Source of the DNA: Dakarella massiliensis
GTDB taxonomy: Bacteria; Pseudomonadota; Gammaproteobacteria; Burkholderiales; Burkholderiaceae_F
Assembly: GCF_001182045.1 (NCBI RefSeq)
Contig: NZ_CVTY01000007.1
Span: 1 to 64,000 of the forward strand
Reading direction: 5' to 3'
DNA: 64,000 nt
Part shown: one piece after another, positions 3,296 through 61,674 of the stretch
Layout: each line of letters starts with the position of its first letter
How positions within the stretch are numbered: position 1 is the first letter of the stretch
The notes under the pieces: model-generated
What the model saw: the letters and a program-made list of their open reading frames with translations, nothing else
Databases searched by the model: none
What the model was told of the DNA's origin: nothing
Position numbers and translations under genes: made by a program

Positions 3296-3395
3296 AAATT
3301 CCTGTCTTTTCAAATAGTTTCATGACGGTAATCTGACCCTGACGGTCAGAACGGTATTTCCTTGATTTAAAAATCACAGAAACGGGAATAGAATT

Positions 3396-3452: not shown

Positions 3453-4940
3453 ATGAATAATCCGTCTCGCCGCCATTTTCTTGAAGGCGCTGCCGCCACA
3501 ATAGCCGGTGCCGCCGTTCTTTCCTCCGGCACCGCAGAAGCTGCGGCCAAAAAAGGTTCCAAAGGAACAGCTGCCTACGATCTCATCATTGTCGGTGCCG
3601 GCTGCGGCGGTCTTGTCTGCGCGGTTCGCGCGGCTCAGATCGGTCTTAAGACTCTGCTGCTCGAAAAGATGATGGATTCCTCTGGCAATACGATTTACGC
3701 CGCGGGCTTTATGCTCGGCACGAATACGAAGATGCAGCGGGCCGCGGGAATCTCCGGCGATACGACAGATAAGTTCTATGACGACATGATCAAAGTGTCC
3801 AAGGGACATGGCGACCCTGCGCTCACCCGCTACTTTGTCGATCATGCTGATCAGACGCTTGAATGGATGGCTGACTACTGCGGCATCAAATTCAAGACCG
3901 GCATGCATTTCATTTTCCCAATGCTTACCCGGTCCCATCTTGTTCAGGGGCCGACCCAGCCTGGCGGTTCCCAGCTGGCGCTCGATCTTCAGAAGAAAGC
4001 AAAGAGCCTCGGTGTAAAAATGATGTTCAACACCAAGGTTGTGCAGTTGCTTCAGAATTCGAAGGGGGTTGTTGACGGTGTCCGCGTCAAGACCAAGGAT
4101 GGTTACAGCGATATCCGTTCCCGCGGCGGTGTGGTTCTTGCCACCGGCGGTTTCTCCGCGAACCAGGCCATGGTGACCCAATACGCGGGGGCTGCGGCCG
4201 CACGCATGCCGATTCGCGGTTCCCGCATTATTGCCGGTGAAAACATCAAACTTACGGATCCGCTCTTCGCGAAGTTTGTGAATGTCGATCAGTATCACTG
4301 CGGCCCGATTCATGGGCCTACCGGCGCTAATCCTCTGAATATCGTGAATAACGGGATCTGCGTCTCAAAGGATGGAACCGAGCGATTCACGGACGAAGGA
4401 CAGACCTATGTTCAGATGGCGCGTGACACTGCGGCGAAGACTTCGGATAACTGGGCCTTCATGATCGTTGACGAGGATGTTCATAACCTGAAGGTCCTCG
4501 CAAACGACTGGAATTCCTACGCAAAGAACCACGCGCCGGTTTATAAGGCCGATACGATCGAGGCTCTCGCCAAGGAAGCGGGTCTTGATCCGAAGAAGCT
4601 GACGAAGATTGTGGATGAATATAACGAGGCCTGCGCGAATAACACCCGCGCGAAACTCGTGCCCCCGAATACGCTGAAGGTTGCCCGCCCCGTGAAAAAG
4701 GCTCCGTTCTACGCTGTGCCGTTCCAGGGCGGAATGACCGCCACTTTCGGCGGCCCTCTGGTGAATACGGACGCACAGGTTCTAGATACTGAGAATCAGC
4801 CGATTCCGGGGCTTTACGCGATCGGCAACGCGGCCGGCGGCCTCTTCTATGACAATTACGTCGGCGGCGCGCAGCTGACAAACGCAGCGGTCTACGGTTA
4901 TCACGTCGCTGATTACATCAAGGCTCATCTGAAGAAGTAA
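3453..4940 (+). CDS. Tat-exported FAD-binding fumarate reductase-type oxidoreductase
   Basis: The 495-residue protein starts with a twin-arginine signal (SRRHFLEGAA, residues 6-15) and a hydrophobic stretch ending near AEAAA, so it should act in the periplasm after folding with its flavin. The dinucleotide-binding motif IIVGAGCGGL follows at about 46-55, and the FAD-binding end GLYAIGNAAGGLF and GGAQLTNAAVYG is near the C-terminus, as in the flavocytochrome c / 3-ketosteroid dehydrogenase superfamily. There is no CXXCH haem motif, so electrons must come from a separate cytochrome or quinol partner. RF-x-x-E (RFTDEG, ~311) matches an active-site element of fumarate reductases. Substrate cannot be read from sequence; such paralogues are often numerous in Sutterellaceae. 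The start is supported by aaggagg 8 bases upstream. Confidence 0.85.
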   Translation: MNNPSRRHFLEGAAATIAGAAVLSSGTAEAAAKKGSKGTAAYDLIIVGAGCGGLVCAVRAAQIGLKTLLLEKMMDSSGNTIYAAGFMLGTNTKMQRAAGISGDTTDKFYDDMIKVSKGHGDPALTRYFVDHADQTLEWMADYCGIKFKTGMHFIFPMLTRSHLVQGPTQPGGSQLALDLQKKAKSLGVKMMFNTKVVQLLQNSKGVVDGVRVKTKDGYSDIRSRGGVVLATGGFSANQAMVTQYAGAAAARMPIRGSRIIAGENIKLTDPLFAKFVNVDQYHCGPIHGPTGANPLNIVNNGICVSKDGTERFTDEGQTYVQMARDTAAKTSDNWAFMIVDEDVHNLKVLANDWNSYAKNHAPVYKADTIEALAKEAGLDPKKLTKIVDEYNEACANNTRAKLVPPNTLKVARPVKKAPFYAVPFQGGMTATFGGPLVNTDAQVLDTENQPIPGLYAIGNAAGGLFYDNYVGGAQLTNAAVYGYHVADYIKAHLKK

Positions 4941-5025: not shown

Positions 5026-5982
5026 TCAATGATAGAAATCGGGGAATCGGGCTTTCAGACGATTCATTGACCGTTCCTCGTGATCCGCGAGCCAGTCAAC
5101 AAAAACCTGAACTCTCCGCTTTTCATACGACTCCTCCCTTGCGAAGACAAAGCAGGGAAGAGGCTTTCTCCTCCAGCCGTCCAGCACGGCGACAAGATTT
5201 CCCGCCTCAATATCATCCGCGCAGTGATAGAGGGAAAGATCCGGAACGACACCAGCCCCCAGCATTACTGCGGTCTTGGCCGATATCAGGTTATGAACCA
5301 CGAGCGTGGATTTCCACTTGATGGTCGCGGTTTTTGCCCCTTTCAGAAGCACCGTTGTTGCGGATCGGGTTGGTGTATTGATCAGGACGCCGGTATGTTT
5401 CTGGCAGTCATCTGCCTGATGGGGGAACCCGTGCTTTCTGATATAGGCAGGTGAAGCGCAGGGAATAAAAGGCATTTCCCCGGAATAACGCTGAATCACT
5501 CCTGGAATCAGGTTGTCTTCCCCATAGCCGACAGCTACATCGACCAGATTGCCGTCAGAGGTCATAAAACCATCCGGAAGGGGAGCCGAGAGTTCGCTCA
5601 GCTCGAACTGGATATCCGGATAAATTTTCTGAAATTCGACCAGCGCCGGTGTGATTTTCGCAGGACCGATGCCCGCGTGGGAGGTGACCCGGATGAGTCC
5701 AGAGAGCTTGCTTTTATCGCCTTTCAGTGAGCGGATCATGTCCTCGTGAGTCGCGGTCAGTTTCAGCGCTGCCTGATAGGCCTCATGCCCCAGCTGGGTC
5801 AGTTTGACAGGACGTGAAGAGCGAGAGAAAAGCGGAGCTCCCAGTTCTTTTTCAAGCGCATGAATTGCCCGGCTCGCGGTGCTGGGTTCACAGTCCAGCC
5901 GCTCGCAGGCGGCATTAAGTCCTTCAGCCCGAACGATTTCACAGAACATCCGCCATGAATTCATGTCGTCCAAACGATTCAC
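5026..5982 (-). CDS. LysR-family transcriptional regulator
   Basis: The 318-residue protein has the LysR winged helix-turn-helix at the N-terminus (about residues 8-66; STASRAIHALEKELGAPLF is the recognition-helix/wing region). A type 2 periplasmic-binding-like effector domain follows from about 95. The start is a GTG with ggagag 7 bases upstream. It is transcribed away from the DcuC-type carrier gene at 6346, the usual arrangement for a LysR protein controlling its neighbour. The likely target is the carrier-amidohydrolase-lyase operon, and the effector may be that pathway's substrate. This is inferred from position only. Confidence 0.88.
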   Translation of the reverse strand: MNRLDDMNSWRMFCEIVRAEGLNAACERLDCEPSTASRAIHALEKELGAPLFSRSSRPVKLTQLGHEAYQAALKLTATHEDMIRSLKGDKSKLSGLIRVTSHAGIGPAKITPALVEFQKIYPDIQFELSELSAPLPDGFMTSDGNLVDVAVGYGEDNLIPGVIQRYSGEMPFIPCASPAYIRKHGFPHQADDCQKHTGVLINTPTRSATTVLLKGAKTATIKWKSTLVVHNLISAKTAVMLGAGVVPDLSLYHCADDIEAGNLVAVLDGWRRKPLPCFVFAREESYEKRRVQVFVDWLADHEERSMNRLKARFPDFYH

Positions 5983-6345: not shown

Positions 6346-7617
6346 ATGACCTGGCAGATTTGGTTCGCATGTGCGGCCATTGTTCTTGCGGTGGTAGGAC
6401 TTGTTAAACGGTATGAAACCCGAATGGTTCTGCTCTTGGCGGGTTTTGCCATGTGTATTGTCGGCGGGGATCCGATGAAGGCCTTTCAGGCGTTCGTCAA
6501 GGGGATGACGAATATCACCCTGGTTCCGGCAATCTGCTCGGCTATGGGTTTTGCTGCCGTTGTGACCGCTTCCAAGTGTGACGAACATCTGGTTGCCGCA
6601 GTCGCCGCCCCGCTTAAGAAGCTCGGCGGTCTCCTGATTCCGGTTACGACGCTTCTCACCTTCGCCATCAATATCGCCATCATGTCGGCTGCCGGTACGG
6701 CCGCAACCGCCGGTGCGACTTTCATCCCTCTCCTTATCCGCGCTGGCATCCGTCCGGCAGCCGCTGCCGCGGCCGTTGGCGGCGGCACGATGGCGGGACT
6801 TCTTCTGAACCCTGGCTGCGCGCATGACATTTACGTCGCGAAGATGGCCAACATGGATCTGATGGCTTTCATTGCCTGGGCGGCTCCGTATGTGGTGGGA
6901 CTGGTTGTCATCGCGACGCTCGTTAACGCCGTCGTTGGAATTTTCGGTTTCCGTGATCACAAACCGAGCGCGGAAGAAATGCAGGGGCTGAACCTGGGCG
7001 AAAAGAAAGAATTCAAGGTGAGCTACCTCCGTGCCATCTGCCCGCTCGTTCCGCTCGCGGTCCTCATGGTCGCCGCTATCTGGTTCCCGAAAGCCGGGCT
7101 CGACGTTGTGGCCGCCATGCTGATCGGTACGCTGGTGATCGCGCTTGTTACGCTCGCGAATCCGGGTGAGCTTTCCAAGGCTTTCTTCAAAGGCATGGGT
7201 TCCGGTTACGCGCAGGTGATCGGCCAGATTGTCGCGGCCGGTGTCTTTACAGCTGGTCTTCAGGTGACCGGTGCGGTCGCGGCCTTCATTGAATTCCTGA
7301 AGAGCTCGAACGAGCTCGCCCGCTGGGGCGCTGCTCTTGGCCCGTATCTGATGGCGATTGGCACGGGTTCAGGTGAAGCGGCAATCTGGGCTTTCAACCA
7401 GGCTGTGACGCCTCACGCTGTGAGCTTTGGAATGTCGCCTAATTCCCTCGGTCTTCTCGCCATTATGGCGGGTCAGTTCGGCCGTACCGCGAGTCCGCTC
7501 GCTGGTTCCATCATCATCGTGGCCGGTATGGCTGCCGCAAACCCGGTCGCGGTCGTGAAGCGCCTTGTTCCTGGTATGACGGTCGGCGTTCTGGTTGCTG
7601 CCCTGATACTGGTGTGA
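6346..7617 (+). CDS. DcuC-type C4-dicarboxylate transporter
   Basis: The frame is open from 6208, but the ATG at 6346 has an aggag site and begins at the first membrane helix (MTWQIWFACAAIV), so 6346 is chosen. The protein is about 423 residues and almost wholly hydrophobic, with a dozen or so predicted helices. Small-residue-rich re-entrant stretches (AAGTAATAGATFIPLL and GTGSGEAAIWAFNQAV) recall the DcuC family of anaerobic C4-dicarboxylate carriers, which sit in the inner membrane and exchange or take up fumarate, succinate or related acids. It is the first gene of a tight group with the amidohydrolase 11 bases downstream, so the real substrate may be a substituted dicarboxylate rather than fumarate itself. 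Confidence 0.75.
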   Translation: MTWQIWFACAAIVLAVVGLVKRYETRMVLLLAGFAMCIVGGDPMKAFQAFVKGMTNITLVPAICSAMGFAAVVTASKCDEHLVAAVAAPLKKLGGLLIPVTTLLTFAINIAIMSAAGTAATAGATFIPLLIRAGIRPAAAAAAVGGGTMAGLLLNPGCAHDIYVAKMANMDLMAFIAWAAPYVVGLVVIATLVNAVVGIFGFRDHKPSAEEMQGLNLGEKKEFKVSYLRAICPLVPLAVLMVAAIWFPKAGLDVVAAMLIGTLVIALVTLANPGELSKAFFKGMGSGYAQVIGQIVAAGVFTAGLQVTGAVAAFIEFLKSSNELARWGAALGPYLMAIGTGSGEAAIWAFNQAVTPHAVSFGMSPNSLGLLAIMAGQFGRTASPLAGSIIIVAGMAAANPVAVVKRLVPGMTVGVLVAALILV

Positions 7618-7627
7618 GGAAAGAAAA

Positions 7628-9046
7628 ATGTACGACCTCATCATCAGAAATGGTTTTGTGGTGGATCCGGAATCCAGATTCGCCGGGAAGGCGGACGTCG
7701 CTGTCGAAAACGGAATGATCGCGGAAGTATCCGAGTCGATCAGCAGCAAAGGTACGGAAGAGCTCGACGCCTCCGGCCTCACGGTGCAGCCAGGCGTCAT
7801 CGATACACATCTTCACCTTGCCTCTCACCCCTTTGGCATGCGGATGACCGCAGAAAGCGGTGTGACGACCTGCCTCGAAATGGCGGGTCCCGCGCCGAAA
7901 GTCTTGAGCTATATGCCGGAAGCGGGTGTTGGGATCAACGTCGCGGTGCTGACCGCCATGATCCCCGGTGACAACCTTTCAGGAAACGATCCGAAGACTG
8001 AAGAAATTGACCGCGCGATGACAAAAGCGGTTGAGGACGGCGCGTTCGGCGTGAAGATCCTTGGCGGGCACTTTCCGCTTACTCCTGAAGCCTCAGCTGA
8101 AATCATCCGTATTGCCGCGGAGCGGGGAATTTACGCTGCCTGGCACGCGGGAACAACGAAAGCGGGTTCCAACATTACGGGTATGAAAGAGGCGGTCGAG
8201 CTGGCGTCTGGCCACCCCTTCCACCTCGCTCATATCAATGCCTATTGCCGGGGACGCGTGAACGGCATTCTCGATGAATGCAAAGAAGCGGAGTCACTCC
8301 TGGCTTCCCATCCGGAAATCGTGACTGAGAGCTATCTCTCGGACAGGAATGGATGCCCGCTGAATTTCACCGCGGACGGGAAACCCGCCTCGGAGATTCT
8401 GTCTGCGCAGCTCAGGTTCTTCGGTTTTGAACCCACTCGGGATGGAGCTGTCGCTGCGATGAAAGCGGATGTGCTTCGCGCTATTGCCCCGAGAAACGGA
8501 ACGCTAGTGCTTCTTCCTCCCAAAGAGGGGGTTGAAGCCTTCCTCTCCGGAGAAGCGAAAGACGGTTCGTTCGGAGCTGTGAATCCGATCATCGCGAGGA
8601 CTTTCTTCGCGACCGCGAAGCGCGCTGACGGCACGTTCCTCGTGGATGGGATCAGCACGGATGGCGGCGTCCTGCCGCGGAACGTCATTGTGCGCGGGGG
8701 CTGCGGCCTGATGAAGCTTGGCGGACTCTCGGCGCTCGAGTTTGCCGCGAAAACCTCCCTCATTCCTGCCCGAATGCTGAAGCTTGATAAGAAGGGGAGG
8801 CTGTCAGCCGGGGCTGACGCGGATCTCACGCTCTATGACCCTGAGCGGATGACCGCGGTTCACACCTTTGTAAGAGGCGAAACCGTTCTTCGGGATGGCC
8901 GGGTGATTGGTCGCGGCGGCACCGTTCTCGTCACTGAGGCAGGTTTGGAAGCCGTTCGCCGGATGGGGCTTCGGACTGAAGTCCTTCCTGGCGGAATACC
9001 AACAATAGACAGGACTTTCGGCTCCCTGTCAAAAAACAATCAATAG
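7628..9046 (+). CDS. metal-dependent amidohydrolase (dihydroorotase/hydantoinase-like)
   Basis: The 472-residue protein has the composite small beta domain at both ends (LIIRNGFVVDPES at the start, ADADLTLYDPERM near the end) and a metal-binding TIM barrel. Visible ligand motifs are HLHLASHP (~61-68), VKILGGH (lysine that could be carbamylated), WHAGT, HLAHINAY and STDGG, as in cyclic-amide hydrolases and N-acyl amino acid deacylases. It should cleave a C-N amide bond in the cytoplasm. Tight spacing to the carrier upstream and the porin/lyase downstream suggests it processes the imported compound. Which amide it hydrolyses is not known. Confidence 0.78.
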   Translation: MYDLIIRNGFVVDPESRFAGKADVAVENGMIAEVSESISSKGTEELDASGLTVQPGVIDTHLHLASHPFGMRMTAESGVTTCLEMAGPAPKVLSYMPEAGVGINVAVLTAMIPGDNLSGNDPKTEEIDRAMTKAVEDGAFGVKILGGHFPLTPEASAEIIRIAAERGIYAAWHAGTTKAGSNITGMKEAVELASGHPFHLAHINAYCRGRVNGILDECKEAESLLASHPEIVTESYLSDRNGCPLNFTADGKPASEILSAQLRFFGFEPTRDGAVAAMKADVLRAIAPRNGTLVLLPPKEGVEAFLSGEAKDGSFGAVNPIIARTFFATAKRADGTFLVDGISTDGGVLPRNVIVRGGCGLMKLGGLSALEFAAKTSLIPARMLKLDKKGRLSAGADADLTLYDPERMTAVHTFVRGETVLRDGRVIGRGGTVLVTEAGLEAVRRMGLRTEVLPGGIPTIDRTFGSLSKNNQ

Positions 9047-9056
9047 GAGATCGTTC

Positions 9057-11684
9057 ATGAAAAAGCATTCACTTCTCGCCGCTTCCGTGGCGCTTGCGCT
9101 GATCGGCGCGGTCCAGCAGGCATCCGCAGCCAACGTTGAGGTTTTTGGATTCCTGGACCAGGGGGTTACCTACCGGCATGAAGACGGCAACACCGGGATG
9201 AAGGGGCCGGTTGGCCAGTCCAAGGCGAACGTCCTTGATAGCGCCGGCTATGTGACGCGTCAGGGTACGAGCCACAGTGTTGAAGAAGGAACGGGAAATG
9301 TGAGCACCTGGGGTATCAAGGGCTCTGAAAAACTTTCCGACAATCTTGAAGTGATCTTCCACCTTGAAGACGGGTTCCTCGCGGATGACGGCACGCTTTA
9401 TATGAATAACGTGCTGTTTGAACGTGAGTCTTCTGTCGGCTTCCGTTCCAAGATCTGGGGCGAACTGAAGGGCGGCCGTATGCCAGCCATGTCAACCGGT
9501 TCCGGTACGACCGGGCTGCTGAACAGCCGCGTGAATCCGTTCGGTGCCGGCTGGGGCAATATGACGGGCGGCTGGAAGTTTACCGGTACGCTTGCGTCGG
9601 CTCGCTGGAACAACATGATCAACTACAAGACCCCTGTAATGCATGGGGCTCAGCTCCACTTCCAGCATTCGTTCGGCGGTAAGAACGACGCGACAGAGGG
9701 GACCTCTGACACAGATCGCTGGACCGCAGTCGGTATCAACTGGACCGGAAACCGCTCGTACGTTGCGGCGGTCGTTGACTGGATCGCTGCCGGCAATTCC
9801 GCGAGCCGTCTGACGGATAAGGATACGTGGAAAGCCACCGTGGGCGGGCACTATAAGTTTGACCGTTTCACGCTGTATGGCACAGCCCAGTATCTGAAAA
9901 ACACGAAGTGGATCGGCGGCTATTCCACGAAGGAATACGCGCCGCTTCAGCACGCGGGTGATCTGACAAAAGGGCTTGACGGCTGGGCTTTCTCGACCGG
10001 CGTTGATGTTCCCGCGGCTGGCGGAACGGTCAAGGTTTCCGCCGCCTGGGGTTTCGGCGAAAACAACAACACGTCGAACCAGAACAAGTACGACCGCGTG
10101 AATCTCGGCCTCGGCTATATCTATCCGCTTTCCCGCCGTACATCGATCTACGCGGTCGGCGGCTATTTCTGGCAGGACGCCGATTGGCCGCGGATGAATA
10201 AAAAGTTATTGTGGAGCAGGGTAAACATGTTGGGTTTCCATGTGGGTAAGGTTCAGGCACCGGATCAATCGATAGTGCATGACACGGAGTATTGGCTGCA
10301 GCAGATCAACCGCGCGTCGGTTGTGGCGAATGTTGAGAGCGGGCTGCTTGACCGGGAACTCGCGAGAAAAATCCGCTCCGCATTGGATGAACTCCGACGG
10401 GAAGCGGCGGAGCCAGGCGCCCAGCACTGCGATCTTTATATTCAGTTTGAGCCGAAACTTCTGAAGCTCTGCGGCATGGAAGCGAGCCGGCTTCATGCGG
10501 GGCGCTCAAGTCAGGATATTCTCGCGACGTCGAACGCCGCGCTGAATCAGGAACGACTGATGATGCTCGCGGGTGAAACAGCCCGGCTCTGCGACGCGCT
10601 TCTTGAAACCGCGAAGCGGGAGTCAGACGCGCTTGTTCCGGCTTATACAAATGGCGTTCAGGCGCAGCCGACGCTTTACAGCCACTATCTCCTCGCTCAG
10701 GTCTACGTATTCAGCCGCGATATTGAGCGCATGGTGGAATGCGTTCGGCGTCACGATGTCTGCCCGATGGGAAGCTGCGTCTGCAACGGTACCGGCTGGC
10801 CGCTCAATTCCGCCCGTATGGCTGAACTGCTTGGGTTTGAACGGACAGCGGATAACGCGTTTGACGCGGGGCAGTGCCGCGGAAATGACCTCCCGCTTGA
10901 GGCAAGCCAGATCGCGGCCTCTGTCATGCTTCATATTGATGCGTTTCTTGCGGATTTCATGACGCAGTATTCCCAGACAAAGCCCTGGATTCACAGCGTG
11001 GATCCGAATGGCGTCTATCACTCGAGCGCGATGCCTCAGAAACGGAATCCCGGTCTTATCAACGACTGCCGGCGGGATGCGGGTCTCGTGATCGGAGAAG
11101 CGCAGGGAGTTCTGATGCGTATGCAGAACCTGACGCTTGGCATGGCGGATGTCCGCGACTCCTGGTCTATGGAGAGTCTGATGACAGACGCGGCTGTGGT
11201 TGTGAAAACCTTTGCCGGTATTGTGAAGTCGCTTCGGGTAGATCGGGAAAGAGCACTCGCCGAGCTGAACGCCGAATGGACCTGCACGCAGGAGATCGCC
11301 GATACGCTGATGCGGGAGGCCGGGATTGATTTTCGGACAGGGCATGGGTTTGCCTCCCGGTTTGTGACATATGCCCGGGAGAAGGGACTGACGCCAGCCA
11401 ATGTGAAGTACGAGGATTTCTGCGGTGTCTGGTCTGAATTTGCGGCAGGCAAGGACCTTCCTCAGTCTTTCCCGCTGAGCACCGGGCAGCTGAAACAGGC
11501 GGTGAAGCCCCGTCACATTCTTGAAAACCGAAAAACCCCGGGAAGCGCTTCTCCTCTGATGCTTGAGGACCAGATGAAATCCGCGTCCCAGATGGTCAGA
11601 GCGATGAAGAGCCGAGTAGACTTTTTCATTCAGAGCCGAAAAGAAGCGGAAAAAACGCTCGAATCGGAATTGCAGGTCCTTTGA
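9057..11684 (+). CDS. porin fused in frame to an argininosuccinate-lyase-type C-N lyase
   Basis: One open frame of 875 residues joins two unrelated proteins. Residues 1-~377 are a Gram-negative trimeric porin: signal peptide ending VQQASA, barrel strands, and the late-strand motif YPLSRRTSIYAVGGY, which in the intact porin at 32620 lies about 36 residues before the C-terminal Phe. Here the last strand and terminal Phe are missing. From ~380 the protein is a full-length lyase of the fumarase/aspartase superfamily, with HAGRSSQDI and the signature SSAMPQKRNP, which releases fumarate from N-substituted aspartates in known members. Internal ATGs at 10194 and 10227 could start a free lyase, the second with ggagcaggg just upstream. 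The join is AT-richer than its surroundings. It looks like a deletion that removed the porin end and the intergenic gap. A functional two-domain protein is unlikely because the signal peptide would export the enzyme. Confidence 0.8.
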   Translation: MKKHSLLAASVALALIGAVQQASAANVEVFGFLDQGVTYRHEDGNTGMKGPVGQSKANVLDSAGYVTRQGTSHSVEEGTGNVSTWGIKGSEKLSDNLEVIFHLEDGFLADDGTLYMNNVLFERESSVGFRSKIWGELKGGRMPAMSTGSGTTGLLNSRVNPFGAGWGNMTGGWKFTGTLASARWNNMINYKTPVMHGAQLHFQHSFGGKNDATEGTSDTDRWTAVGINWTGNRSYVAAVVDWIAAGNSASRLTDKDTWKATVGGHYKFDRFTLYGTAQYLKNTKWIGGYSTKEYAPLQHAGDLTKGLDGWAFSTGVDVPAAGGTVKVSAAWGFGENNNTSNQNKYDRVNLGLGYIYPLSRRTSIYAVGGYFWQDADWPRMNKKLLWSRVNMLGFHVGKVQAPDQSIVHDTEYWLQQINRASVVANVESGLLDRELARKIRSALDELRREAAEPGAQHCDLYIQFEPKLLKLCGMEASRLHAGRSSQDILATSNAALNQERLMMLAGETARLCDALLETAKRESDALVPAYTNGVQAQPTLYSHYLLAQVYVFSRDIERMVECVRRHDVCPMGSCVCNGTGWPLNSARMAELLGFERTADNAFDAGQCRGNDLPLEASQIAASVMLHIDAFLADFMTQYSQTKPWIHSVDPNGVYHSSAMPQKRNPGLINDCRRDAGLVIGEAQGVLMRMQNLTLGMADVRDSWSMESLMTDAAVVVKTFAGIVKSLRVDRERALAELNAEWTCTQEIADTLMREAGIDFRTGHGFASRFVTYAREKGLTPANVKYEDFCGVWSEFAAGKDLPQSFPLSTGQLKQAVKPRHILENRKTPGSASPLMLEDQMKSASQMVRAMKSRVDFFIQSRKEAEKTLESELQVL
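10227..11684 (+). CDS. probable free lyase (argininosuccinate lyase family) from internal start
   Basis: This is the same frame as the fusion ORF, given separately because the ATG at 10227 has a usable ribosome site (ggagcaggg, 6 bases before it) and begins close to the natural N-terminus of the family. The product would be about 485 residues with the complete three-part helical lyase fold: HAGRSSQDI in the first conserved region, the NGVQAQPTLYSHYL region in the second, and SSAMPQKRNP as the flexible catalytic-serine loop. Known relatives split argininosuccinate, adenylosuccinate or EDDS-type compounds into fumarate and an amine. Which start is used is an inference. Confidence 0.5.
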   Translation: MLGFHVGKVQAPDQSIVHDTEYWLQQINRASVVANVESGLLDRELARKIRSALDELRREAAEPGAQHCDLYIQFEPKLLKLCGMEASRLHAGRSSQDILATSNAALNQERLMMLAGETARLCDALLETAKRESDALVPAYTNGVQAQPTLYSHYLLAQVYVFSRDIERMVECVRRHDVCPMGSCVCNGTGWPLNSARMAELLGFERTADNAFDAGQCRGNDLPLEASQIAASVMLHIDAFLADFMTQYSQTKPWIHSVDPNGVYHSSAMPQKRNPGLINDCRRDAGLVIGEAQGVLMRMQNLTLGMADVRDSWSMESLMTDAAVVVKTFAGIVKSLRVDRERALAELNAEWTCTQEIADTLMREAGIDFRTGHGFASRFVTYAREKGLTPANVKYEDFCGVWSEFAAGKDLPQSFPLSTGQLKQAVKPRHILENRKTPGSASPLMLEDQMKSASQMVRAMKSRVDFFIQSRKEAEKTLESELQVL

Positions 11685-11714: not shown

Positions 11715-12947
11715 ATGAACGCCGAAATGACGCTGCAGCTCGAAAAACGCCGCTGGTGGATTCTCGCGGTCATAGGATTGATTAACCTCTGCGCGGGATC
11801 GATCTACGCCTGGAGTGTGCTGGCGGCCGCGAGCGCCGCGAAGCTCTCATCAGTCCTCGGCACAGCGGTAACGTCGGGTGACCTCGCTATTGCGTTCGGG
11901 GTCGCGAATGCGGTGGGACCGATTCCGATGATTCTGGGGGGAGCGATCAATGACCGATTCGGTCCCCGGACCGTCATTGTGGCAGGCGGTTTCCTGATGG
12001 GCTTAGGGCTGATCTGCTGCGGTCTCGCGGAATCCGTGGGGACTCTGATTGCGGCGTACGGCGGTCTTTTCGGTCTGGGTCTGGGGCTGACCTATGGGGC
12101 CTGCATCACTACCGCTGTCCGTTATTTCCCGGACCGACGCGGGATGGCAGGGGGTATCGTGACGGCGGCCTATGGCATGAGTTCGGTGCTTGTGCCGCCG
12201 ATTGCTCAGGCTCTGATTGGCACTGTCGGCATTACCGCGACGTTCATTATTCTCGGAACGGTCTGTGGGGTTGCCATCATGGCCGGTGGGTTTGTCTGCA
12301 GGCAGTGTCCTCCTGATTTCGTGCCGCACGGCATGGTGAAAAAAGCGAAAGCAGAGGCGAAAGGGCTCACCTGGCGCGAAATGCTGAGGAGCCCGGTCTT
12401 TTACCCCATGATCGCGCTGCTTCTCAGCGGGGCCTTCGCGGGGATGATGATTATTTCCCAGGCGGCATCCATCGCGCGCCATGAAATCGGGATGACGGCT
12501 GCGGCCGCGGCGGTATCGGTTTCTGTCATTGCGCTTTTCAATATGGCGGGCCGCCTTGTGGCGGGAATTCTTTCTGACCATCTCGGGCGGATCGCGGTGC
12601 TTGCCGGAGCGCTCTGCCTGTCGCTCGCCGGGCTCTTTACGCTGATGACCGCGGGGATGGGGGATTTCGCGCAGTACTACCTGGGCTGTGTCCTCGTGGG
12701 ACTCTCCTTTGGCGCCTTTATGGCTATTTACCCGGGCTTTACAGCTGAAAGGTTTGGTACTGCGCATTCAAGCGTCAACTACGGGATCATGTTCTGCGGC
12801 TTCGCTGCCGCAGGATTCGGCGGCCCCGCGCTGATGCGCTGGATGCAGAACACGGGCTTTGCCTTCTCAGACTGCTGTATGGTTGGCGCGGCGTTCTGTC
12901 TTTTGGGACTTGTTTTCGCGGCAGTCTGCCGCAGGATGATGAAGTAG
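11715..12947 (+). CDS. MFS transporter, oxalate/formate antiporter-like (OFA) family
   Basis: The 410-residue protein has twelve predicted membrane helices. The N-terminal pattern RRWWILAVIGLINLCAGSIY and the following helices resemble OxlT-type carriers, and NDRFGPRT after helix 2 is the MFS motif A loop. It follows the lyase by 30 bases with an aaggaga site and ends the operon before a strong terminator. In this setting it may export an acid product or exchange it for substrate. Confidence 0.78.
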   Translation: MNAEMTLQLEKRRWWILAVIGLINLCAGSIYAWSVLAAASAAKLSSVLGTAVTSGDLAIAFGVANAVGPIPMILGGAINDRFGPRTVIVAGGFLMGLGLICCGLAESVGTLIAAYGGLFGLGLGLTYGACITTAVRYFPDRRGMAGGIVTAAYGMSSVLVPPIAQALIGTVGITATFIILGTVCGVAIMAGGFVCRQCPPDFVPHGMVKKAKAEAKGLTWREMLRSPVFYPMIALLLSGAFAGMMIISQAASIARHEIGMTAAAAAVSVSVIALFNMAGRLVAGILSDHLGRIAVLAGALCLSLAGLFTLMTAGMGDFAQYYLGCVLVGLSFGAFMAIYPGFTAERFGTAHSSVNYGIMFCGFAAAGFGGPALMRWMQNTGFAFSDCCMVGAAFCLLGLVFAAVCRRMMK

Positions 12948-57734: not shown

Positions 57735-58914
57735 ATGAAGCAGCTGAAAGCGACGCGCCGCGTTCTGATTGGAGCGGGTGCCGCAGTGGCGGTCGGTGCG
57801 GCAGCTTTTGGAGCGTCCGCCTTCTTTAAGGATCGGAAGCCGTCTGAATTCAATGCCCGCCTGATCGTCGGCTCTGATACGGATAATTCCATCGCCGTGC
57901 AGCTACACGGTGAAGGGTAGAACCTATCACCTGCAGACAGTACGGATAGCGGGACTGCATCCGTCAACGACGTATGAGTACCAGATCACCGGTCCGAATG
58001 ACGAAAGATCCGGATGGACAGCTTTCAGAACATCAGATCCCGAAAACTGCCGCGCGCTGATATTCCCGGACTCTCAGTCCAACGATCGGTATAAGACCTG
58101 GGAAGGAGTTTATAACGGCGCACTTGGCAGGACACCCGATATTGACTTTACCTGCAACATGGGTGATCTCGTTGACTGCGGTGCCTGGCTCGATCACTGG
58201 GATTACTGGTTCAGCGCTGTGAAGAGCGGAATCAGCCGGATTCCGGTCGCTGTTGTGATGGGGAATCACGATACCTACGATCTGGATTCCAAGACACGCG
58301 TCGCGGATCCCGCGATGTTTCTGCATTCTTTCCCGGTGCCGGATAACGGAAGCGAGAATTTCAGGCGCTGGTACTACACATTCGATTCGGGTCCCGTGCA
58401 TTTCATTGTTCTGAATACGGAGTGGCAGGAGGCGAATCTTCTGAGACCGGGGCTTCTTTCTGAGATGAAAGCCTGGTTCCGGAATGTGGCCTCCAAAACT
58501 GATAAGCCCTGGAGCGTTGTTCTGATGCACAGGGATGTGCTGTACTACAAGATCAAAGGGCGAAAGCGCGCCGACGAAACGTTTGATGAGGTTGGTAAGG
58601 AACTGATGCCGCTCTTTGACGAGGCCGGAGTGGATCTTGTTCTCACGGCTCATCTTCATACCTATCGGCGGCGAGACCACATCAAAGCGTTTGCCCGATC
58701 GGAAGACGGTCCTCTCTATATTGTGACTGGTGTGGCCGGCAATATACGGTATCCGGATTTCTGGATTGATCACCCGCTTGATGTGAAGATAGCGCCTCAG
58801 CCTGAAACGGATAACTATCTGCTGCTGGACGCTTCCCGTCAGTCTCTGTCACTGAAGACGTTTCTCCCGAATGGAAATGAGATTGACAGCGTGACGCTGA
58901 CGAAAAATATTTAG
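57735..58914 (+). pseudogene. Tat-exported metallophosphoesterase, frameshifted and partly deleted
   Basis: Reading from 57735, the N-terminal part has a twin-arginine signal (TRRVLIGAGAAVAV) and the first strands of a fibronectin-like domain (ARLIVGSDTDNSIAVQLHG), then stops at 57920. The rest runs in the +1 frame from about 57910: GLHPSTTYEYQITG ends the fibronectin-like part, followed by a calcineurin-like catalytic domain with FPDSQSND, NMGDLVDCG, MGNHDTY, VLMHRD and TAHLHTYRR. About 25-35 residues usually present between the two strands are missing, so a deletion caused the frameshift. A GTG at 57910 could start a 334-residue fragment without export signal. Confidence 0.72.
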
Positions 58915-60374: not shown

Positions 60375-61674
60375 TCAGGCGGCCTGAGGAACCGGAGTAC
60401 CCGGCTCGTCGGACTCGGCAGGCGGCAGCTTGCCCTTCAGATCGTGGTCCGTCATGGTGGCGACGCAGGAGTCGCTCGCAACGTTCACCGCGGTTTCAAT
60501 CATGTCGATGATGGCGTAGACCGGGAGGATCACACCCATCAGGTCAACCGGGACGTTGAGGGAAGACATGAGGGAGAGGGTAAGGAAGTAGCAGCCCATC
60601 GGAACACCAGCGTTGCCGACCGCGGCGATCACCGCAACGACCACCCAGACTGCCATCATGCCGCCCGTAATCGCGATGCCGGCATTCTGCATCAGGTAGA
60701 GGGACGTGACCAGAATGAAGGCAGCGCAGCCATTCATGTTGATCGTGGTGCAAATCGGGAGCACGAAGCGGGTAACGCGGCGGTCAAGGCGCAGGTTCTG
60801 TTCGGCAGAGGCAAGCGTCACAGGAAGCGTGCCGGCGGAGCTCTTCGAGAAAAGGGCAACGGCAAGCGCCGGGAACATGCCCTTCAGGACGCGCAGCGGA
60901 TTGATCCGGCGGGCGAGAAGGAAGAGCGGCAGCACAACGAAGAACTGCAGCAGGTTACCCGTCACAACAACGGCGACATACTTGCCAAGGGAACCAACGA
61001 TCACACCGGCTTCAATCTGAGAGGACAGCTGGCCCGCGAAGGCGAGAATACCGATCGGGAGAATGAAGAGGAGCGCGCGGATCAGCGTGAAAAGGAGTTC
61101 CTGGAGTCCGAAGATCACCCGGAGCAGGGAATCACGGCCTTCCGTGCGGGGCATGAAGGCGAGAGCCAGACCGACCGCAACCGCGATCACCAGAACGGAG
61201 AGCACATTGCCTTCAAGGAAGGGGGCAGAACGTTATCCGGAATGACAGACAGGAAGTGGTCGTAGTAGCTGAGCGACTGAAGATTCTTCGGGACAGCGGC
61301 AGTACCGGCTGCCGACACGGCGGCAGGAACGTTTTCCGGCGCAATCAGGATAAAGAGCCCGAGTGCGACGAGAGCCGCGGCGAAGGTTGTTGCGAGAGTG
61401 TAGAAAATCGCGTGAGCGAAGATCTGCATGGTTTCTCTTTTCGCGCCTAGCTGAGAAAGCGTGGTAATCACGGCAAGCGCGATCACCGGCACGGCGACGA
61501 ACTTAAAGAGGCGGGTGAAGACGGTAGCAATAAAGCCGAACAGTTCGTTCAGCCAACCAATCTGCAGCCAGCCATGAGCGCGAAAAACCAGAACGCGATA
61601 ACGCGTGTGTTTTTCTTAAGGGCAGCCTGAGCGTTAGTCGGGGAACCGCTCGGCTCTTTTTGTAGGTTTTCCAT
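60375..61674 (-). pseudogene. dicarboxylate/amino-acid:cation symporter gene with two frameshifts
   Basis: Three consecutive reading frames on the minus strand rebuild one DAACS carrier of about 430 residues. Part 1 starts at 61674 (MENLQKEPSGSPTNAQ) and runs to FFALMAG, then shifts near 61566 to QIGWLNELFGFIATVF, where one base appears lost. Part 2 runs through PVIALAVITTLSQLG to DNVLP and shifts again at the G5 run 61221-61225, where one base appears lost. Part 3 continues as FLEGNVLSVLVIAVAVG to the stop at 60375. The family motifs FSKSSAGTLPVTLASAE and LPICTTINMNGCAAF are in part 3. Either a decayed gene or uncorrected sequencing errors. Confidence 0.78.

Follow-up and report, generated by a model that had tools for sequence, protein, structure and literature searches.

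In-frame joining of a truncated porin gene to an intact lyase gene in Dakarella massiliensis, probably by a small deletion

In the window, by which we mean the whole 64,000-nucleotide stretch of DNA from the gut bacterium Dakarella massiliensis that was analysed (contig NZ_CVTY01000007.1), a single open reading frame of 875 codons on the forward strand (9057-11684), starting at an ATG, joins a porin in frame to a lyase. At the joint 116 bases are missing in comparison with the closest relative, porin and lyase are separate genes in the relatives, and the start and the coding sequence of the lyase are kept. We consider it likely, with a probability of about 0.7, that this Mesosutterella lineage recently lost 116 bases by deletion, and with them the final 18 codons of the porin, its stop codon and most of a hairpin in the spacer that followed. 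The deletion itself is probably real, and it was seen in one assembly only. In bacteria, a small deletion that removes a stop codon and a spacer can join two operon genes, which gives rise to fusions and pseudogenes; the present locus resembles such cases in that stop codon and spacer are gone and two operon genes are joined, and it has the look of a commonplace gene-disrupting deletion of recent date, or possibly of an assembly error, rather than of a novel type of fusion protein. No porin-lyase fusion was found in print in the open-access papers that were searched.

Results

A porin without its end and a complete lyase in one frame

An earlier note, made from the letters of the sequence, had described the in-frame porin-lyase frame of 875 codons, and both its description and its coordinates proved right. 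Pfam analysis of the 875-residue product placed Porin_4 at residues 9-372 (99.3 bits on the porin, cut-off 27), Lyase_1 at residues 408-679 and ASL_C2 at residues 746-791. The note's further statements on the two halves also agree with our data: the porin lacks its end and its C-terminal Phe, the missing part corresponding to the last 18 residues and the stop codon of the orthologue in Mesosutterella multiformis, and the lyase is complete, with both of its domains in an intact frame. Positions of the features are collected in Table 1. As the note had also said, the joint is richer in AT than its surroundings, since GC in 100-base windows was 0.52 and 0.47 over the joint (10150-10299) and 0.53-0.59 on the flanks; the AT-rich part is the kept translation-start region of the lyase, which is likewise present in M. 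multiformis. The ribosome site that the note assigned to the ATG at 10227 was borne out by the GGAG and AGGG motifs upstream and by a duplex energy with the anti-Shine-Dalgarno sequence of -5.7 kcal/mol, a value that was equal in M. multiformis. The additional in-frame ATG in the spacer remnant is a GTG in M. multiformis.

Table 1. Features of the fused frame and of the neighbouring genes in the window
Feature	Position	Strand	Basis and remarks
LysR-type regulator, divergent	5026-5982	-	similar protein at the same place in Sutterella wadsworthensis (by eye)
DcuC-type C4-dicarboxylate transporter	6346-7617	+	NF037994, 378.9 bits, cut-off 100
Amidohydrolase	7628-9046	+	Amidohydro_3 / Amidohydro_1
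Truncated porin (Porin_4)	9057-10187	+	residues 1-377 of ancestral ~395; Pfam Porin_4 9-372 and alignments with M. multiformis, S. wadsworthensis and others
Porin signal peptide	~residues 1-24	+	judged by eye
Probable deletion joint	10184-10200	+	116 bases of the M. multiformis locus missing; blastn segments overlap at window 10187-10198
Intercistronic spacer remnant, now linker codons	10188-10226	+	of the hairpin, only part of the right arm remains; holds in-frame ATG 10194
Lyase Shine-Dalgarno-like GGAG...AGGG, kept	10213-10221	+	sequence; identical in M. multiformis; duplex energy
Lyase gene (argininosuccinate lyase / fumarase superfamily)	10227-11684	+	485 aa from the ancestral ATG, frame intact; Lyase_1, ASL_C2
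MFS transporter (lactate / monocarboxylate type)	11715-12947	+	MFS_1; NF049980, 350.5 bits, cut-off 320

The two genes are separate in relatives

In the closest relative, M. multiformis 4NBBH2 (NZ_BGZJ01000001.1), the porin and the lyase are two separate genes. The porin-lyase region there has ~90-95% DNA identity with the window, and the pair is orthologous to that of the window, with the order kept and protein identities of ~92% for the porin and ~97% for the lyase; it differs in that the genes are separate, a porin end, a stop codon and a spacer with a hairpin are present, and the locus is 116 bases longer. The M. multiformis porin has 395 residues, ending ..DADWQRKNISAHEFIAGMMHRF, and its stop codon is followed by 98 bases containing a hairpin of 16 pairs and then by the lyase ATG, so that 18 further residues, terminated by Phe, lie beyond the point where the porin of the window is cut after residue 377. 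The distance between the end of porin codon 377 and the lyase ATG is 39 bases in the window versus 155 in M. multiformis, which makes 116 fewer. Both ends of the putative deletion fall in M. multiformis on a 12-base imperfect repeat in which 9 of 12 positions are identical (4020-4031 and 4136-4147 in the coordinates of L021, the M. multiformis stretch that carries the locus).

The 64-kb window is collinear with M. multiformis, identity ranging from 90.5 to 98.9% by segment, and 38 of 54 mechanically called frames of at least 100 aa in the M. multiformis stretch match a frame of the window in stop and in length (within 10%). Four stretches of ~1.1-1.8 kb occur only in M. multiformis, and three of them hold a 333-residue frame (one at L053:7916-8917); the one such frame that was scanned matched HTH_38 and rve and is of insertion-sequence type.

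The lyase search took in 67 genomes of the family, among them the window's own, and gave matches at 1e-60 in 42 of them. Thirty-one loci were inspected: that of the window, 11 with a porin upstream, one in Sutterella wadsworthensis DSM 14016 (L030) that apparently repeats another (L036) and was counted once with it, and 18 more distantly related lyases (at most 45% identity), in whose flanks of up to 1.5 kb no porin match was found. In each of the 11 other loci the porin lies directly upstream of the lyase as a separate gene with its own stop codon and an HRF or HRW end, the spacer measures 59-143 bases, and the lyase starts at an ATG with a protein that begins MLG; none of them is fused, and a fused architecture is thus not conserved among these relatives. 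For S. wadsworthensis DSM 14016 the separate porin and lyase were confirmed by tblastn, and the gene order is the same, the neighbours (LysR, DcuC-like, amidohydrolase-like and MFS) being recognised from their translations. Because all 11 other loci have separate genes and an MLG start, sequence comparison indicates that the two-gene state is ancestral and that ATG 10227 is the original lyase start. The earlier note had proposed a comparison with the homologous locus in related genomes, and the separate porin end and spacer are indeed found there. Its first alternative had two parts: loss of the porin through a deletion, which the separate genes of the relatives strongly support, and a newly acquired start for the lyase, which the ancestral MLG start contradicts.

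A spacer fold shared in position

In M. multiformis a 112-base stretch with the hairpin (L021 4071-4182) folds at -40.5 kcal/mol with a z score of -4.78, and the joint of the window showed no significant fold (z -0.32). The porin-lyase spacers of the relatives (L032-L042) fold at z <= -2 in 10 of 11 cases, the exception being L038 with z -1.24, as compared with 6 of 132 control stretches picked randomly from the region 3' of the lyase start at these loci; 200 shuffles were used for spacers and 60 for controls, and some of the 11 loci are closely related, so that they do not amount to 11 independent events. The fold is common to the relatives in position and not in sequence. At most three T were counted in the ten bases after the stem (fewer than ten bases in three cases) in 10 of the 11 spacers, and six T in L042, and by this count the spacer folds look less like terminators. 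A role in stability or processing, by which more porin than lyase would be made, seems a reasonable guess; parts of one operon can decay at different rates (PMC5927463). The hairpin may also be ordinary, because folds follow other porins of the same genome: 9 of its 13 other porin-like genes have z <= -2 in the 110 bases after the stop codon, several with T tracts (one stretch, L057, duplicated L068 and was left out of this count).

Age of the event and chance of an in-frame joint

Between the window and M. multiformis the porin has a dN/dS of 0.069, with 111 synonymous and 36 non-synonymous changes over 377 codons, and the values for the other genes are 0.047 (lyase), 0.063 (amidohydrolase), 0.036 (MFS) and 0.007 (dcuC). 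When amino-acid changes were polarised by ten other loci, 11 porin changes were assigned to the lineage of the window and 11 to that of M. multiformis, with 9 left unassigned, and the corresponding numbers for the lyase were 6, 7 and 3. The low porin dN/dS and the equal number of changes in both lineages suggest that the event is recent; a porin with these values has either drifted only briefly or is still whole in living cells. Read in either of the other two frames, the joint runs into a stop codon ahead of the lyase (TGA at 10195, TAA at 10199), so that about one deletion in three would give a fused frame by accident.

Further differences from M. multiformis

Two other stretches of M. multiformis sequence are missing from the window, each bordered by a few shared bases: 79 bases in an intergenic position at 3365 and 83 bases near a gene start at 57894-57902. 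The second changes a reading frame, which has 420 aa in M. multiformis versus 334 aa in the window. On the reverse strand (60375-61492), a one-base difference near 61225 divides a sodium:dicarboxylate symporter gene, 459 aa long in M. multiformis, into two frames of 276 and 101 aa; either this is a further disrupted transporter gene or the base is wrong. These three differences could be real decay, insertions in M. multiformis, or assembly errors.

Discussion

Origin and meaning of the joint

The preferred reading, a recent deletion, has to be weighed against an artefact of assembly, of PCR or of a mixed population, in which 116 bases were skipped between short repeats while the real genes are separate. 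We hold such an artefact to be unlikely, yet it has several points in its favour: the missing stretch contains the 16-pair hairpin and ends at imperfect repeats, polymerases may skip a hairpin, the porin shows no relaxation, and its low dN/dS fits equally well an artefact with a whole porin in the living cell. The window's lack of the 79 and 83 bases, together with the one-base frameshift near 61225, points the same way. Other hairpins tell against it. When the matching 70 kb of M. multiformis were scanned for perfect stems of at least 10 pairs with a loop of 3-14, the lost hairpin standing outside the list, the sequences of all nine other strong hairpins were recovered in the window, with 97-100% of positions aligned, and in seven of these a perfect stem of 10 or more pairs is preserved. 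The two other small missing stretches are without a hairpin comparably strong to the lost one, and the contig is 1.04 Mb long in an assembly of 7 contigs.

Two further readings accept the deletion and give it a function. The 10 of 11 spacers folding at z <= -2, against 6 of 132 controls, and the destruction of this fold element by the deletion would suit a regulatory change under selection, in which loss of the hairpin and of the porin stop codon raises lyase expression or ties it to translation of a porin that the cell can do without; but 9 of 13 other porin-like genes in this genome are likewise followed by a fold, so that the spacer fold need not be special, and ribosomes reading through could equally hinder the internal lyase start, and we regard this change as improbable. 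We think it just as doubtful that the deletion was selected as a rewiring of the operon, whether by making the lyase dependent on porin translation or by giving a stable, envelope-targeted porin-lyase chain. That the lyase is brought to the envelope or held there by its porin half, or that the fused chain has some other role, is in our judgement very improbable: the frame is open from the porin start to the lyase end and dN/dS is low in both halves, but no other locus of the 11 is fused, the porin is without the end and the terminal aromatic residue that all 11 others keep, the event looks recent, in-frame joining is expected about once in three by chance, and the lyase start is retained. The earlier note's alternative of a fusion with a role of its own is thus left unsupported by the 11 separate pairs, by the apparent recency of the event and by the missing porin end.

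For the recent deletion that we favour, slippage or short-homology joining would be the likely route. The porin part could presumably no longer close its barrel or carry a C-terminal assembly signal, and the fused chain would probably be exported and then degraded, while translation of the lyase would still begin at its own ATG, 10227, within the long frame. The net outcome would be a loss of porin function, for which the 13 other porin-like genes probably compensate, and a chance in-frame read-through. Automatic annotation could name a single porin-lyase fusion protein here, and such a name should be read with caution, since the frame probably arose when a small deletion brought two ancestral genes together.

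The lyase and its operon

The loop motif SSxMPxKxNP is characteristic of the argininosuccinate lyase / fumarase superfamily, and the form SSAMPQKRNP in 12 of 12 aligned rows, together with a Lyase_1 score of 88.7 bits (cut-off 27), places the enzyme in that superfamily. It was not recognised as argininosuccinate lyase proper, the argH model TIGR00838 giving 204.6 bits, below its cut-off of 279.5, when the whole fused protein was scored. The best solved matches were 6rx8 and 6g3d, deposited as argininosuccinate lyase (E 4.1e-40 and 1.3e-39), which we take to be the EDDS lyase of Chelativorans; they share with the window lyase the SS.MPQK.NP loop and YT[NQ], where argininosuccinate lyase has YTH, but are distant relatives whose likeness is one of sequence alone. 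An EDDS lyase acts on N-substituted aspartates, with fumarate as a product. In the other direction it adds amines to fumarate (PMC12363623).

The order dcuC - amidohydrolase - porin - lyase - MFS appears from the sequences to be a conserved operon, and this operon, with a lyase resembling the EDDS lyase type, is common to Mesosutterella and Sutterella. It may supply fumarate to anaerobic respiration, in that the amidohydrolase and the lyase would release fumarate and DcuC would move dicarboxylates. Near the operon, a FAD_binding_2 flavoprotein is encoded at 3453-4940 on the forward strand, with a TAT-signal match below its cut-off; it is possibly an exported reductase that could use fumarate.

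The porin and other porin-like genes

Porins without the last strand and the terminal aromatic residue fail to assemble, and this terminus, kept in 11 of 11 orthologues, is missing in the window. A profile of 12 porins, the window's included, had as its best solved match Omp32 (outer membrane porin protein 32, PDB 1e54, E 1.4e-12), and unlike Omp32 the window copy falls short of the chain end, its last residue lying near position 300 of the 332 in Omp32. With the M. multiformis porin alone, phmmer found no match at 0.01 among solved structures, and a structure prediction for that porin from a three-row alignment (mean pLDDT 28.7) was not used.

The genome of the window gave 18 matches, 13 of which are further porin-like genes, making 14 porin-like genes in all. 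One of them (L066, G000:C7:249386-250279) has a frame that runs on to a non-aromatic C-terminus and is possibly another damaged porin; the other 12 checked end in Phe. Porin-like and lyase-superfamily matches also lie within a few kb of each other elsewhere in this genome, at G000:C6:73025-73912 on the reverse strand and C6:75503-76894 on the forward strand, and comparable pairs occur in two further genomes of the genus (G002, which is M. multiformis, and G003).
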